Of a stretch of 64,000 nucleotides of DNA, positions 20,129-27,201 are shown piece after piece. The position numbers were made by a program, and so were the translations under genes. The first letter of the stretch is position 1. Every line of letters begins with the position of its first letter. The notes under the pieces are model-generated. The model was not told the DNA's origin. It did no database searches and saw only the letters and a program-made list of their open reading frames with translations. The stretch covers positions 124,001 to 188,000 of the forward strand of contig JAENZP010000003.1 in NCBI GenBank assembly GCA_016841205.1, given 5' to 3'. This DNA comes from Desulfoscipio geothermicus. GTDB taxonomy: Bacteria; Bacillota; Desulfotomaculia; Desulfotomaculales; Desulfallaceae.

Positions 20129-22150
20129 TTGAAGAATTATACTACCGAACAACTCCGTAACATCGCTATTGTTGGCCACGGTGGTGCGGGGAAAACATCT
20201 CTGGTGGAAGCAATGCTTTTTAACACTGGAGTAATAAATCGCCTTGGCCGGGTAGAAGATGGTACTACCATAGCTGACTACCACCCTGAAGAGGCACAGC
20301 GCCAATCCACGGTGCATACAAGCCTGGTGCCTGTGGAAGTAAACAATACTAAATTAAACTTTTTAGATACCCCTGGGTTTTCCGATTTTATAGGCGAAGT
20401 AAAAGGTGCTTTACGGGTAGCTGATACTGCTATGTTTGTGTTCTCTGCCGTGGACGGCGTGCAGGTTCAGCATGAAATTATCTGGAAATCTGTTCAAAAG
20501 GTTGAGCTCCCCCGAGTGGCTTTCATCAATAAAATGGACCGGGAAAATGCCAGTTTTTCAAAGTTAATGGATGAGTTAAACGTCAAGTTTAAAGCTAACT
20601 TTGTTCCTGTAAACTTTCCCATTGGTGAGGGTTTGGATTACAAAGGCATTGTAGACGTGCTCAATGAAAAGGCTTTTGAATTCGGTGATGACGGAAAACC
20701 TAAGGAAATTGCTATTCCCGCTGAATTGCAGGATCAAATGCAAGAGTATCGTGATAAATTGATTGAGGCTGCAGCCGAGGGCGACGATGACCTGACTATG
20801 AAATATTTGGAAGGTGAGGAATTAACTCCGGAGGAAATTAAATTCGGGCTGCACAATAGTATTACTAACGCTAAGGCTGTGCCTGTACTGTGCGGATCAG
20901 CAACCAAAAATATGGCCATTCCCAATTTATACGACTTTTTATCCCAGTATCTACCTGCACCCAAATGCGAGAACGGACCGATGGCTGTACTGGTATTTAA
21001 AACTCTGGCCGACCCCTATGTGGGACGCATGAACTTTATACGTGTTTTCCGCGGCGATTTAAAAGCAGACTCCCAGGTGTATAACGCCACTAAGGAAAAT
21101 AACGAGAAAATTGGTCAGGTACTATTTGTGCGTGGTAAACACACGGAGCAAACTACCCAGGTTTTCTGCGGTGATTTGGCAGTCGTAGTGAAGCTAACCG
21201 ACACCAGCTCCGGAGACACTTTGTGCGACAAAGATAACAAAGAGGTTCTGGAAAGAATTGAATTTCCGGTACCCAACTACACCCTGGCCATTTCGCCCAA
21301 GAGTAAAAATGACGAGGATAAAATGGGTGATGCAGTTCACAAACTGCTGGAAGAAGATCCCTCACTCAGGGTGGAAAAAAATAAGGAAACCAAGCAAACT
21401 CTTCTAACCGGCATGGGTGAAGCCCATGTAAATATTATGATTAGCAATCTTAAGCGCCGTTACGGTGTTGACGTGGTTACAGAGGAACCCAAGGTACCTT
21501 ATCGTGAAACCATCCGCGCCAAAGTAGAGGTGGAAGGTAAACATAAGAAACAATCCGGCGGTCGTGGACAGTACGGGCACGTATGGATAAGGTTTGAGCC
21601 TCTACCTGAGGGTGACTTTGAATTTAATGAAGAAGTCTTTGGCGGTGCAGTGCCACGCAACTACTTCCCAGCAGTGGAAAAAGGCTTACGGGAGGTTATG
21701 GTGGAAGGTGCTCTGGCCGGTTATCAAACGGTGGGCATGAAAGCTACACTATACGATGGTTCCTACCATAACGTAGACTCATCTGAAATGGCATTTAAGA
21801 TAGCGGCTTCTCTGGCTTTTAAAAAGGCGGTCCCAATGGCAAAGCCAGCCTTACTGGAACCTATTATGTCCGTTGAAGTAACCGTACCGGACGAGTTTAT
21901 GGGAGACATTATCGGCGACTTTAATACCAAGCGCGGCCGGGTATTGGGCACAGACCAGGTTGAAGAAGGCACCGTGGTAAAAGCCCATGTGCCGCTGGCT
22001 GAAATGTTCAAGTATGCCAATGATCTTAAATCAATGACCCAGGGCCGCGGGCAATTTAAGATGGAGTTTAACAGTTATGAAGAAGTTCCTGCCAAACTGG
22101 CTGAGGATATCATACAAAAGGCCAAAGCCGAAGCCGAGGCGGAAAAATAG
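20129..22150 (+). CDS. Elongation factor G-like GTPase (EF-G paralogue)
   Basis: 673 residues, TTG start after AAAGGAGG. Translational GTPase with G1 GHGGAGKT, G2 RQSTVHTS, G3 DTPGFSDF and G4 NKMD, then EF-G domains II-V. Two features suggest the secondary EF-G class rather than canonical FusA: the divergent G1 (GHGGAGKT rather than AHIDAGKT) and the S-T-V-H-T-S switch I. The gene also sits outside a ribosomal str operon. The paralogue may act in ribosome recycling or translocation under special conditions. A perfect terminator follows. Confidence 0.85.
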   Translation: MKNYTTEQLRNIAIVGHGGAGKTSLVEAMLFNTGVINRLGRVEDGTTIADYHPEEAQRQSTVHTSLVPVEVNNTKLNFLDTPGFSDFIGEVKGALRVADTAMFVFSAVDGVQVQHEIIWKSVQKVELPRVAFINKMDRENASFSKLMDELNVKFKANFVPVNFPIGEGLDYKGIVDVLNEKAFEFGDDGKPKEIAIPAELQDQMQEYRDKLIEAAAEGDDDLTMKYLEGEELTPEEIKFGLHNSITNAKAVPVLCGSATKNMAIPNLYDFLSQYLPAPKCENGPMAVLVFKTLADPYVGRMNFIRVFRGDLKADSQVYNATKENNEKIGQVLFVRGKHTEQTTQVFCGDLAVVVKLTDTSSGDTLCDKDNKEVLERIEFPVPNYTLAISPKSKNDEDKMGDAVHKLLEEDPSLRVEKNKETKQTLLTGMGEAHVNIMISNLKRRYGVDVVTEEPKVPYRETIRAKVEVEGKHKKQSGGRGQYGHVWIRFEPLPEGDFEFNEEVFGGAVPRNYFPAVEKGLREVMVEGALAGYQTVGMKATLYDGSYHNVDSSEMAFKIAASLAFKKAVPMAKPALLEPIMSVEVTVPDEFMGDIIGDFNTKRGRVLGTDQVEEGTVVKAHVPLAEMFKYANDLKSMTQGRGQFKMEFNSYEEVPAKLAEDIIQKAKAEAEAEK

Positions 22151-22170: not shown

Positions 22171-22196
22171 GCCGGTTTATTATAACCGGCTTTTTT
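22171..22196 (+). terminator. Terminator of the EF-G paralogue
   Basis: GCCGGTT/AACCGGC with TATTAT loop and TTTTTT tail. Confidence 0.85.
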
Positions 22197-22221
22197 ATGC
22201 GGTTTTAGTTTTTATCTTATT

Positions 22222-22413
22222 TCACAGGTTGTAGTGTAGTATATAGGAGATATTTTGTAAATTGCCAATCCCAGTAAGAAGGTCGTCGGATTCGGATGCA
22301 CCGGTGTCAGTGCCCACTACCAGGGTAACGCCAAGCATGAGGGGCCTATGTTGGCGCGGTAGACTGAAAAATCCTGGTTTGTTCAGGGCTAGGTGTACAT
22401 GGCAGTCTATCAT
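22222..22413 (-). pseudogene. Probable amidohydrolase remnant
   Basis: A 63-codon frame begins MIDCHVHLALNKPGFF, which resembles the metal-binding DxHxHL start of amidohydrolases. It then passes directly to GVTLVVGTDTGASESDDLL, which resembles the C-terminal GTD motif of the same superfamily. The central catalytic part (about 200 residues) is missing and there is no ribosome site. I read it as an internally deleted relic; chance resemblance is possible. Confidence 0.35.
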
Positions 22414-22480
22414 AAGCGGTAATATTCGTTTAATTTATTTAGTTAATCAAAAAAATTAACGGTAATAAAAAGCAATAATA

Positions 22481-22509
22481 TTGTCACAACATTATTCATA
22501 TGTTAAAAT
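22481..22509 (+). promoter_or_regulatory. Sigma-A promoter of the putative RNA gene
   Basis: TTGTCA (22481-22486), exact 17-nt spacer, TAAAAT (22504-22509). No open frame starts within the following 170 nt before a terminator. Confidence 0.7.
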
Positions 22510-22515
22510 TATTCA

Positions 22516-22683
22516 AGAATTGGGCGGTATCTGCTTAGAACCGCACCACTTGTTTGGGTTGGTTGGGTAGGTGATGCTTTTGTTAGATTAAGCTAACATA
22601 TCTCCGCTTGGAGCCGGTAGGACCGAGACGGGTTTGTACCAAGGGATTTATATACCCTTCGGACTTGTCCGGAGGGTTTTTAT
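22516..22683 (+). ncRNA. Putative structured RNA or riboswitch-like leader upstream of panB
   Basis: About 168 nt between a good promoter and a strong terminator, with no convincing ORF. Local hairpins visible: GCGGT/ACCGC (22525-22545), CACC/GGTG around 22544-22573, TGTTAG/CTAACA near 22580-22598, CTCC/GGAG with loop GCTT (22602-22613), and CGGT/ACCG with loop AGG (22615-22625). The sequence does not match any riboswitch consensus, 6S, SRP or tmRNA pattern I know. It may be a stand-alone small RNA or a termination-controlled leader of panB, whose start is 137 nt further on. Confidence 0.45.
22654..22683 (+). terminator. Strong terminator ending the putative RNA
   Basis: Ten-base-pair stem ACCCTTCGGA/TCCGGAGGGT (one T-G pair) with CTTG loop, then TTTTTATT. 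Confidence 0.85.
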
Positions 22684-22819
22684 TATCCTCCAATATTCTT
22701 TCCAACAATATGTTTTTTACAAAAATATAAAGCTATTATTTTAAATTTTAAAGGATTTTATTAATAGTTATATAATTTACAGGAACAATAATGAAAAAAG
22801 CATAAAAGGAGTGAATGTA

Positions 22820-23683
22820 GTGGAGAAACAAAAAGGCAATATATTAAAATTTAAAGATATGAAGCAGCAAGGTAAAAAGATCACTATGGTCACGACCTAT
22901 GATTTCGGTATGATGTCTCAGGTGGACAAGACTGACATAGATATGATACTGGTAGGCGATTCAGCGGCTAATACCATGATGGGCTATGAAGGAACGGTGC
23001 AAATTGACCTGGATACCATGATGGTTTTTTACAAGGCAGTTGCCAATGCCGGTAAACATACTTTCATGGTGGGAGACATGCCCTTTATGACATATGAAAT
23101 AAGTGCAGAACAAGCAATGGCCAATGCAGGCCGGATTATTAGGGAAGGACGCATGGATGCCGTTAAGCTGGAAGGCGGGGAACGTATAGCAAATACCGTG
23201 GCCGCCTTGGTCAAGGCCGGTATACCGGTGATGGGCCATATTGGTTTAACACCTCAGAGCGCCGCCCAGTTGGGCGGTTTCAAAGTGCAGGGCAAAAGCC
23301 TCCAAAGTGCCAAGCAGATAATTAAAGACGCACTGGCTCTCGAACAAGCCGGCGCATTTGCCATTGTCCTTGAAGCCATACCCAGCCCGGTGGCTAAAAT
23401 CATCACAGAAAGTGTTCAGGTGCCCACCATTGGCATTGGTGCCGGAAATTGCTGCGATGGTCAGGTGCTAGTCATTCACGACCTTTTAGGCCTGTTTGAT
23501 AGGTATACCCCCAAGTTTGTCAAACGCTATGCCAATCTGGGCGAAGATATGCAAAAAGCGTTAAACACTTATTCCAGCGAAGTGCGTAATGGCGTATTCC
23601 CAGACGAGGAACATTCCTTTAGCATGTCCCAGGATTTAGTAGAACAGCTGACGGCTGAATTGCAAAAAGATGATATATTGTAG
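22820..23683 (+). CDS. panB: 3-methyl-2-oxobutanoate hydroxymethyltransferase
   Basis: 287 residues. Transfers a hydroxymethyl group from methylene-THF to ketoisovalerate, the first committed step of pantothenate/CoA synthesis. GTG 22820 is chosen because AAAGGAG (22805-22811) overlaps the earlier GTG. Motifs: ITMVTTYDF, MILVGDSAANTMMGYEGT (metal-binding Asp), DAVKLEGG, GHIGLTPQS, and VPTIGIGAGNCCDGQVLV. panC and panD are not adjacent, so regulation may be separate; the RNA element upstream is a candidate regulator. Confidence 0.94.
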   Translation: MEKQKGNILKFKDMKQQGKKITMVTTYDFGMMSQVDKTDIDMILVGDSAANTMMGYEGTVQIDLDTMMVFYKAVANAGKHTFMVGDMPFMTYEISAEQAMANAGRIIREGRMDAVKLEGGERIANTVAALVKAGIPVMGHIGLTPQSAAQLGGFKVQGKSLQSAKQIIKDALALEQAGAFAIVLEAIPSPVAKIITESVQVPTIGIGAGNCCDGQVLVIHDLLGLFDRYTPKFVKRYANLGEDMQKALNTYSSEVRNGVFPDEEHSFSMSQDLVEQLTAELQKDDIL

Positions 23684-25536: not shown

Positions 25537-27201
25537 ATGACCTCTTGGAAAAGAAAAAGAAACGAAAGTTTTAATGACTTAATAATAAGCACATATTTAT
25601 TAAGCTTATTATGCTTTGCAATTGCTTTTATAATAAAGTATATACCTTCTAATTATAATCCATTAAGAAGCATTACAATTTGTTTTTTCCTATTTTTAGC
25701 AATCTTAGGATTTATTTTTTTATTTTATATAAAATCTACAAGATTTGGAATTTCATTGTTATGCTTTATAATTATCGATTTTTTAATTATAAGTTATAAT
25801 GATTACATAAAGATGTTATTAATCATCCCTGTTATTTTGATATCTGTGTTTGTTAATAAAAAAAATGGCATTCTTATCTCCTTCATCGGGGGAATAAGTA
25901 TATGTATATACGATTATTATTTTTTTGAATCAACCAATTTAAATCAAAATCTAGAGTCAAATATTCTATTCACTGCCATTATGTTTATAACTGCCTGTCT
26001 TGTTGGGGGTATTGCCGAGATCGAACGAGAAACAAGATCTATACTTTTTGAATTAGCTAACCGCGACGGTTTGTCAGGTGTCTATAATCATGGATATTTT
26101 CAAGTTTGTTTTAGGTCTATGTGTAAAGAAGCGGAGCAAATAAAAAAATCATTAAGTTTAGTAATTTTTGATATAGATTATTTTAAACATTTTAATGATA
26201 GTTTTGGGCACCCAGCAGGTGATGAGATTTTAAAAGGCGTTGGGGAGATACTACAAAATCATGTAAAACATCCATCTGTTTGCGCTCGTTACGGAGGAGA
26301 TGAATTCTGTATTCTATTACCTAACCATGATGTGAAATCAGCATATGAGTTGACTCAATGTATTAAGAAAGAAATTGAAAATTTAAATATAAAAAATACG
26401 GAAAAACTTCCGGCTAGGAAAATAACTATTACTGCCGGTGTAGCAAATTATCCGGAACATACAGATCAGGCCAATAAAATATTAAAACTGGCGGACCAAG
26501 CCTTATATAAGGCTAAGTATACCAACAAATCCAACATTGCGCTTTATTTCAATGTGTTAGACGGTTTAAAAAATTTCTGTGAAAAATCCGAAAAGGAGCT
26601 TTTGAATTCTATAAAGACTCTTCTTCATGTTATTAATGCCAAAGATAAATATACTTATGGCCATTCAGAAAGAGTGCTAGAATATGCTACTATTTTGGCA
26701 ACATGTTATGGAGTAAATATAAACCATTTAAGGAATATACAATATGGTGCATACCTTCATGACATTGGTAAAATTGAAGTGGATATTACCATACTAAACA
26801 GTTTTGAAAAAATAACTGAACACGAATGGAATATATTAAAACAACATCCATATTGGGGAAGTGAGATAATTAAACCTATAAAATCACTTGAAGAAGTAAG
26901 ACCATTTATATTATATCATCATGAAAATTACGATGGAACCGGTTATCCATATGGCATTAGTGGTCCGGAAATACCATTAGGGGCCAGAATAATTCGTATT
27001 GTGGATAGTTTCGATGCAATGACCACAGATAGGCCATATAAAAAAGGCATTACACCTGAAGAGGCATGTCAAGAAATTTTAAAATATGCAGATAAAATGT
27101 ACGATAAAGAACTTTGTAAATTGTTTGTTGAGATAATTAAATCTAAGCCAAACATTTCATTAAATTATAAAGACCATTATGTGACCTCCTCCCACCACTA
27201 A
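25537..27201 (+). CDS. Membrane GGDEF and HD-GYP protein (c-di-GMP synthesis/degradation)
   Basis: 554 residues, ATG with AAAGGTG upstream. Residues about 20-165 hold five or six transmembrane helices. A GGDEF domain follows (about 175-335) with intact active site RYGGDEF (253-257) and DIDYFKHFND. No RxxD inhibitory site is visible five residues before it. An HD-GYP phosphodiesterase domain fills 355-545, with H408/D409 in HDIGK and the GYP motif (HHENYDGTGYP) at 469-471. It could both make and break cyclic di-GMP. It lies 56 nt after agrD on the same strand, suggesting that it is controlled with, or responds to, the peptide system. Confidence 0.88.
   Translation: MTSWKRKRNESFNDLIISTYLLSLLCFAIAFIIKYIPSNYNPLRSITICFFLFLAILGFIFLFYIKSTRFGISLLCFIIIDFLIISYNDYIKMLLIIPVILISVFVNKKNGILISFIGGISICIYDYYFFESTNLNQNLESNILFTAIMFITACLVGGIAEIERETRSILFELANRDGLSGVYNHGYFQVCFRSMCKEAEQIKKSLSLVIFDIDYFKHFNDSFGHPAGDEILKGVGEILQNHVKHPSVCARYGGDEFCILLPNHDVKSAYELTQCIKKEIENLNIKNTEKLPARKITITAGVANYPEHTDQANKILKLADQALYKAKYTNKSNIALYFNVLDGLKNFCEKSEKELLNSIKTLLHVINAKDKYTYGHSERVLEYATILATCYGVNINHLRNIQYGAYLHDIGKIEVDITILNSFEKITEHEWNILKQHPYWGSEIIKPIKSLEEVRPFILYHHENYDGTGYPYGISGPEIPLGARIIRIVDSFDAMTTDRPYKKGITPEEACQEILKYADKMYDKELCKLFVEIIKSKPNISLNYKDHYVTSSHH

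Follow-up and report, generated by a model that had tools for sequence, protein, structure and literature searches.

A pan motif leader that probably attenuates transcription precedes a panB gene apart from panC-panD in Desulfoscipio geothermicus

In the stretch of Desulfoscipio geothermicus DNA analysed here (64,000 nucleotides, hereafter the window), a gene for an EF-G paralogue (20129-22150; Pfam EF-G domains at 20129-22147) is followed by panB (22820-23683, plus strand; ORF listing and Pfam), which encodes ketopantoate hydroxymethyltransferase (PF02548). The GTG start at 22820 was picked by eye after AAGGAG at 22806-22811; the ORF listing begins at 22811. This arrangement leads to the question what lies between the two genes and how it may act on panB. 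An initial annotation, made from the sequence, placed there a promoter, a structured RNA and a strong terminator, and the sequence together with a promoter and terminator scan bears this out. The RNA was described as unidentified, and either a new sRNA or a pantothenate-related leader was considered. A cmscan search, however, matched 22521-22635 to the pan motif, RF01749, over the full model (positions 1-92) with 44.9 bits against a gathering score of 36.2. In the whole window RF01749 is the sole Rfam family besides tRNA (two tRNAs) that reaches its gathering score. The stretch before panB is thus the already catalogued pan motif, a real and conserved element. A clear Rfam match had been named beforehand as the outcome that speaks against novelty, and it rules out a new sRNA family; the suggestion of a pantothenate-related leader was right, with panB next downstream. 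Eleven further cmscan matches at the stretch and the matches to other Rfam families among the loci of relatives all lie below their cut-offs and were taken as chance. Two ORFs of 40 and 41 amino acids also cross the stretch, which itself matches the RNA family.

Weinberg et al. catalogued the pan motif in 2010 and suggested a mode of action without testing it; their description of the motif gives tandem stems with two conserved bulged A's each, located upstream of panB or panC in Firmicutes (PMC2864571). All three testable defining features, namely the score, the tandem bulged-A stems and a pantothenate gene downstream, are found here, and as far as that description goes the leader agrees with it in stems, gene context and Firmicutes host, with nothing disqualifying. 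Terminator coupling, copies with long spacers that score below the cut-off, and separate panB and panC-panD leaders in one genome are added to it by the present analysis.

The element begins with a promoter, TTGTCA-17-TAAAAT (22481-22509, plus strand; motif scan), which agrees with the consensus at 10 of 12 positions and has a TG ahead of the -10 hexamer. Such hexamer pairs are common in this A+T-rich stretch (8 on both strands of 751 bases, against 2.6 expected from shuffles), so the match alone has little weight. What makes the promoter credible is that the leaders of the genus share both hexamers at this position, TTG[CT][CT]A occurring in all 14 and TAAAAT in 13 of them. On the same strand follow hairpin P1 (22521-22548, bulged A's at 22529 and 22545), a variable spacer (22549-22603) containing a local, not generally conserved hairpin at about 22581-22598, and hairpin P2 (22604-22631, bulged A's at 22612 and 22628), both hairpins being placed by the RF01749 alignment and pair counts. 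A linker (22632-22653) leads to the intrinsic terminator (22654-22683), in which a stem of 10 pairs (22654-22677) is followed by the T tract, TTTTATTATC.

The initial annotation had proposed a covariation test on homologous leaders, and both stems covary. The alignment comprised 47 leaders, of which 45 came from 60 loci of the order and phylum, 15 near-duplicate loci having been dropped by eye, and two from the window genome itself. Standard pairs fill 93.2% of the cells, a value to be read with the lean toward the Rfam structure that comes from collecting the rows with the Rfam model, and 13 of the 21 pairs are changed on both sides. Structures slid along the alignment pair 29-48% of the cells, and none of 500 shuffles reached any of five covariation measures. 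Thus, the P1 and P2 helices are both under covariation. Most of it is held by P1 (9 of 10 pairs). P2 is near-invariant in sequence, which points to base recognition, and no row among the 47 departs from A in any of the four bulged-A columns. Beside the 5' bulged A of P2, 16 rows have a U-A pair, one has C-G and 30 have a non-standard combination, mostly G.A, the window leader included.

All 48 leaders examined from the order have an intrinsic terminator after the motif, its stem beginning 9-24 nt past P2; this count is without a shuffle control of its own and covers the 30 best-scoring order loci and 18 others from the genus, its family and genome G068, with 14 leaders from one genus. Among the 30 best-scoring loci of the phylum, which include one from the window's own order (L098), 28 show a terminator no further than 150 nt away; 26 of these begin no more than 36 nt from P2 and two only at about 90 nt. 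L078 and L080 have none by the criteria used. In comparison, 6 of 30 had a terminator at 400-550 nt downstream, and mononucleotide shuffles gave 2.8 on average. The leaders are related, so these counts are not independent events, and the loci are the best-scoring ones instead of a random draw. Attenuation is the natural reading of such coupling, and transcription attenuation is most probably the way in which the pan leader acts, with a terminator whose conditionality is inferred.

The reading that we prefer, with a probability of about 0.72, is that this RF01749 leader of panB is a transcription attenuator run by a trans-acting factor. It builds on the family membership, the covarying tandem hairpins, the terminator coupling, the gene context and a second copy before panC-panD, and adds by inference an antiterminator as working switch, a direction of control, a protein and its signal. 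RNA polymerase would start at about 22515 and make P1 and P2. The bulged A's of both hairpins would then be gripped by a factor, most probably a dimeric protein that binds RNA and signals pantothenate or CoA sufficiency; the dimeric protein is an idea of Weinberg et al. 2010 (PMC2864571). With the factor bound, P2 would be kept closed and the linker barred from the 5' arm of the terminator, which would form and stop the transcript at a predicted length of about 165-170 nt. With the factor absent, the linker, joined in many relatives by the 3' base of P2, would pair with the 5' arm and allow readthrough into panB. The direction of control and the sensed signal would follow from pathway logic only.

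LicT/SacY RAT elements and the PyrR and TRAP leaders are protein-responsive antiterminator or attenuator leaders of Firmicutes. The pan leader would be like them if a protein bound to the RNA selects between terminator and antiterminator, a likeness proposed for the mode of action alone.

The same terminator could instead be controlled by a small molecule (pantothenate, CoA or a precursor) bound jointly by P1 and P2, that is, by a riboswitch. The cis position ahead of pantothenate genes, the terminator coupling and the near-invariant nucleotides around the bulges would suit it, and an RNA-seq paper uses the term "pantothenate-related riboswitch" in a passage that holds no binding test (PMC5670726). 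However, the hairpins are very simple, and their separation varies widely with both intact: the P1-P2 core distance is 79-159 nt in the 14 genus leaders and ranges in the family from 50 (G007) to 169 nt (G010, with a long inserted hairpin), the value for G015 being unsure. This is hard to reconcile with one pocket and speaks for a dimeric protein docking at two sites rather than for a single compact ligand pocket, and we consider a riboswitch unlikely, if still worth keeping in mind. The insert of the G010 leader is a long near-perfect inverted repeat between P1 and P2 (L061, about 2022-2085), which attracts chance microRNA-family matches and resembles a small inserted palindromic element.

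Long spacers also bear on detection. Three panC leaders of the genus fall under the Rfam cut-off (G005 at 35.9; G001 and G006 absent at E<=1), yet their hairpins, promoter and terminator are all plain in the sequence. The long P1-P2 spacer probably explains these scores, and the Rfam model probably misses true pan copies of this kind. Pan leaders below the cut-off, with P1-P2 distances of 129-169 nt, were seen at L058 2388-2700, L059 2631-2910, L060 2544-2845 and L061 1920-2230.

RF01749 was found in 92 of 100 relatives including the window genome (88 above the cut-off) and in 65 of 149 genomes of the phylum (59 above it); the phylum genomes G101, G102, G105, G169, G220 and G226 have two pan motifs each. 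Bacillus subtilis 168, included as a control genome, carries a pan motif as well. In the 92 relatives, panB or panC follows 96 of the 99 leaders in the same orientation at 75-1325 nt, and for the remaining three the contig ends less than 1 kb downstream. The distance is 75-205 nt in 16 cases and 953-1325 nt, with space for one gene, in 80. In the one case of the latter kind that was examined (G027), the gene in between encodes a Rossmann/DUF2520 protein, perhaps a PanG-type ketopantoate reductase. A second leader, with 87% identity to the first, is found in the window genome at G000:C23:154064-154258; it also exceeds the RF01749 cut-off and precedes panC-panD-nadA, panC being assigned by PF02569 and panD placed by tblastn. 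With the three weak copies counted, panB and panC-panD are each preceded by a leader in all seven genus genomes examined.

These data bear on whether the element could be a stand-alone, trans-acting small RNA that lies before panB by chance. It is bracketed by its own promoter and terminator, its terminated product would have the size of a small RNA given above, and a second promoter-like pair follows the terminator at 22747-22776. The TATAAT of that pair, however, occurs in only 2 of the 7 genus panB leaders, and the linkage to pantothenate genes, together with separate copies at panB and at panC-panD in a genus where the two are apart, is the behaviour of a cis element. A stand-alone small RNA is therefore very improbable; a stable released RNA may exist, in which case it would be the terminated product of the attenuator. 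The pair at 22747-22776 could by-pass the leader terminator. Just 5' of the panB ribosome site lies a conserved stretch, about 36 nt long (TTATTAATAGTTATATAATTT-ACAGGAACAATAATG in the window; about 22758-22793); it is common to the panB mRNAs of the window and six other genus genomes and missing from the panC copies, and a tiny ORF within it is not conserved, its start codon being ACG in 2 of 7. That the strong terminator present at the site is constitutive and merely shields panB from EF-G readthrough can be set aside as barely credible, since the sequence shows the EF-G gene to have its own hairpin and T's (about 22171-22197; the scan lists this hairpin for the minus strand only), the promoter sits between that hairpin and the leader, and insulation has no need of constrained tandem hairpins.

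The preferred attenuator needs a structure that competes with the terminator. Past P2 the linker is in many cases rich in purines (GAGG, AAGG), which allows pairing with a terminator 5' arm of CCTT or CCTC type, and in many families the last three bases of P2 join this pairing. In the leaders of the window genus, AAGGG (or AGGG) has this role and would pair with CCCTT further along; in the window leader, AAGGG at 22641-22645 can pair with CCCTT at 22655-22659. A first test, of the P2 3' strand plus the start of the linker against the arm and loop of the terminator, gave no clear excess over 607 control terminators: 3 of 48 leaders were at or under the controls' 5% level, the median was 0.24 and the window leader scored 0.54. 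An antiterminator of this form was dropped. In a second test, of the linker plus the last 3 nt of P2 against the 5' arm, 14 of 44 genera beat their own shuffles (p<=0.05), as did 35 of the 607 other terminators from the same loci; the p-value of this second test is optimistic, since it was chosen after the failed one and after viewing the sequences, and its shuffles keep the base composition of the linker but not its dinucleotides. The count takes the first-listed leader of each genus, with the window leader representing its own, and omits the terminator-less L078 and L080 as well as L098, whose genus was already counted. The window leader passes (0.01) and only 2 of the 14 genus leaders do; 13 of 43 genera pass when it is left out. 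The linker/5'-arm pairing is accordingly described here as a candidate antiterminator. In the window genus it has only 4-5 pairs, which by themselves would not outcompete a terminator of 10 pairs.

The second leader raises the question how panB came to stand apart from panC-panD. No panC or panD remnants were found by tblastn after the window panB (best panC E 0.34). An agrB-like gene (PF04647; 24724-25480) overlapped by a short ORF the size of AgrD sits further on, between panB and the gene for a GGDEF-HD protein (25537-27201). The window panB differs from the order's usual operonic panB and groups in a 12-genome clade (100/100) with a long stem; its identity is 64-73% outside the genus and 50-54% to four operonic PanB's. 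Among named panB genes, the closest found (86-91% identity) are those of two Desulfoscipio geothermicus MAGs and of Sporotomaculum syntrophicum. In five other genomes of the clade (G008, G010, G015, G032 and G068) the panB side has no pan motif at E<=1, and neither leader, used as a blastn query, had a match there at E<1; these five may yet have a weak leader whose spacer is very long. In G010, EF-G likewise precedes panB. The simplest reading is that panB separated first and a leader copy was recruited later, on the branch to the window genus. The leader tree is too weak for dating this or for telling whether the panB-side leaders share one origin, with 2 of 15 inner branches starred and one change in 24% of the bootstrap trees.

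Just 5' of the window leader lies an amidohydrolase fossil (22240-22434, minus strand), made of three collinear blocks with 77-88% DNA identity and internal deletions. An intact amidohydrolase gene stands divergently beside the panC-side leader of the same genome (L003 6334-7539). The fossil is present in the window genome only and was not found in the EF-G/leader spacers of six other genus genomes. It would fit a duplication of a segment that carried leader and amidohydrolase, and a separate event is possible as well. Recent copying from the panC locus was considered and is unsupported, the fossil being about equally close to the G003 gene and to that of its own genome.

A wider proposal, which we hold tentatively and would not yet bet on, is that the pan leader is a portable, protein-operated attenuator. 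Across the phylum, the terminator 5' arms would have been kept complementary to the P2 base and the purine linker, which would make factor binding and antitermination mutually exclusive, and in the genus the module of promoter, P1, P2 and terminator would have been recruited from the panC-panD locus to the displaced panB. Beyond the catalogued motif, the extra value lies in the terminator coupling and in the doubled leader of a split pathway. As the coupling is found in nearly all examined copies, it offers a directly testable read-out, readthrough at one site, and two independent pan leaders in one genome are a natural duplicate for finding a factor that binds both. If the proposal is true, the recruited module restored joint control of a split pantothenate pathway.
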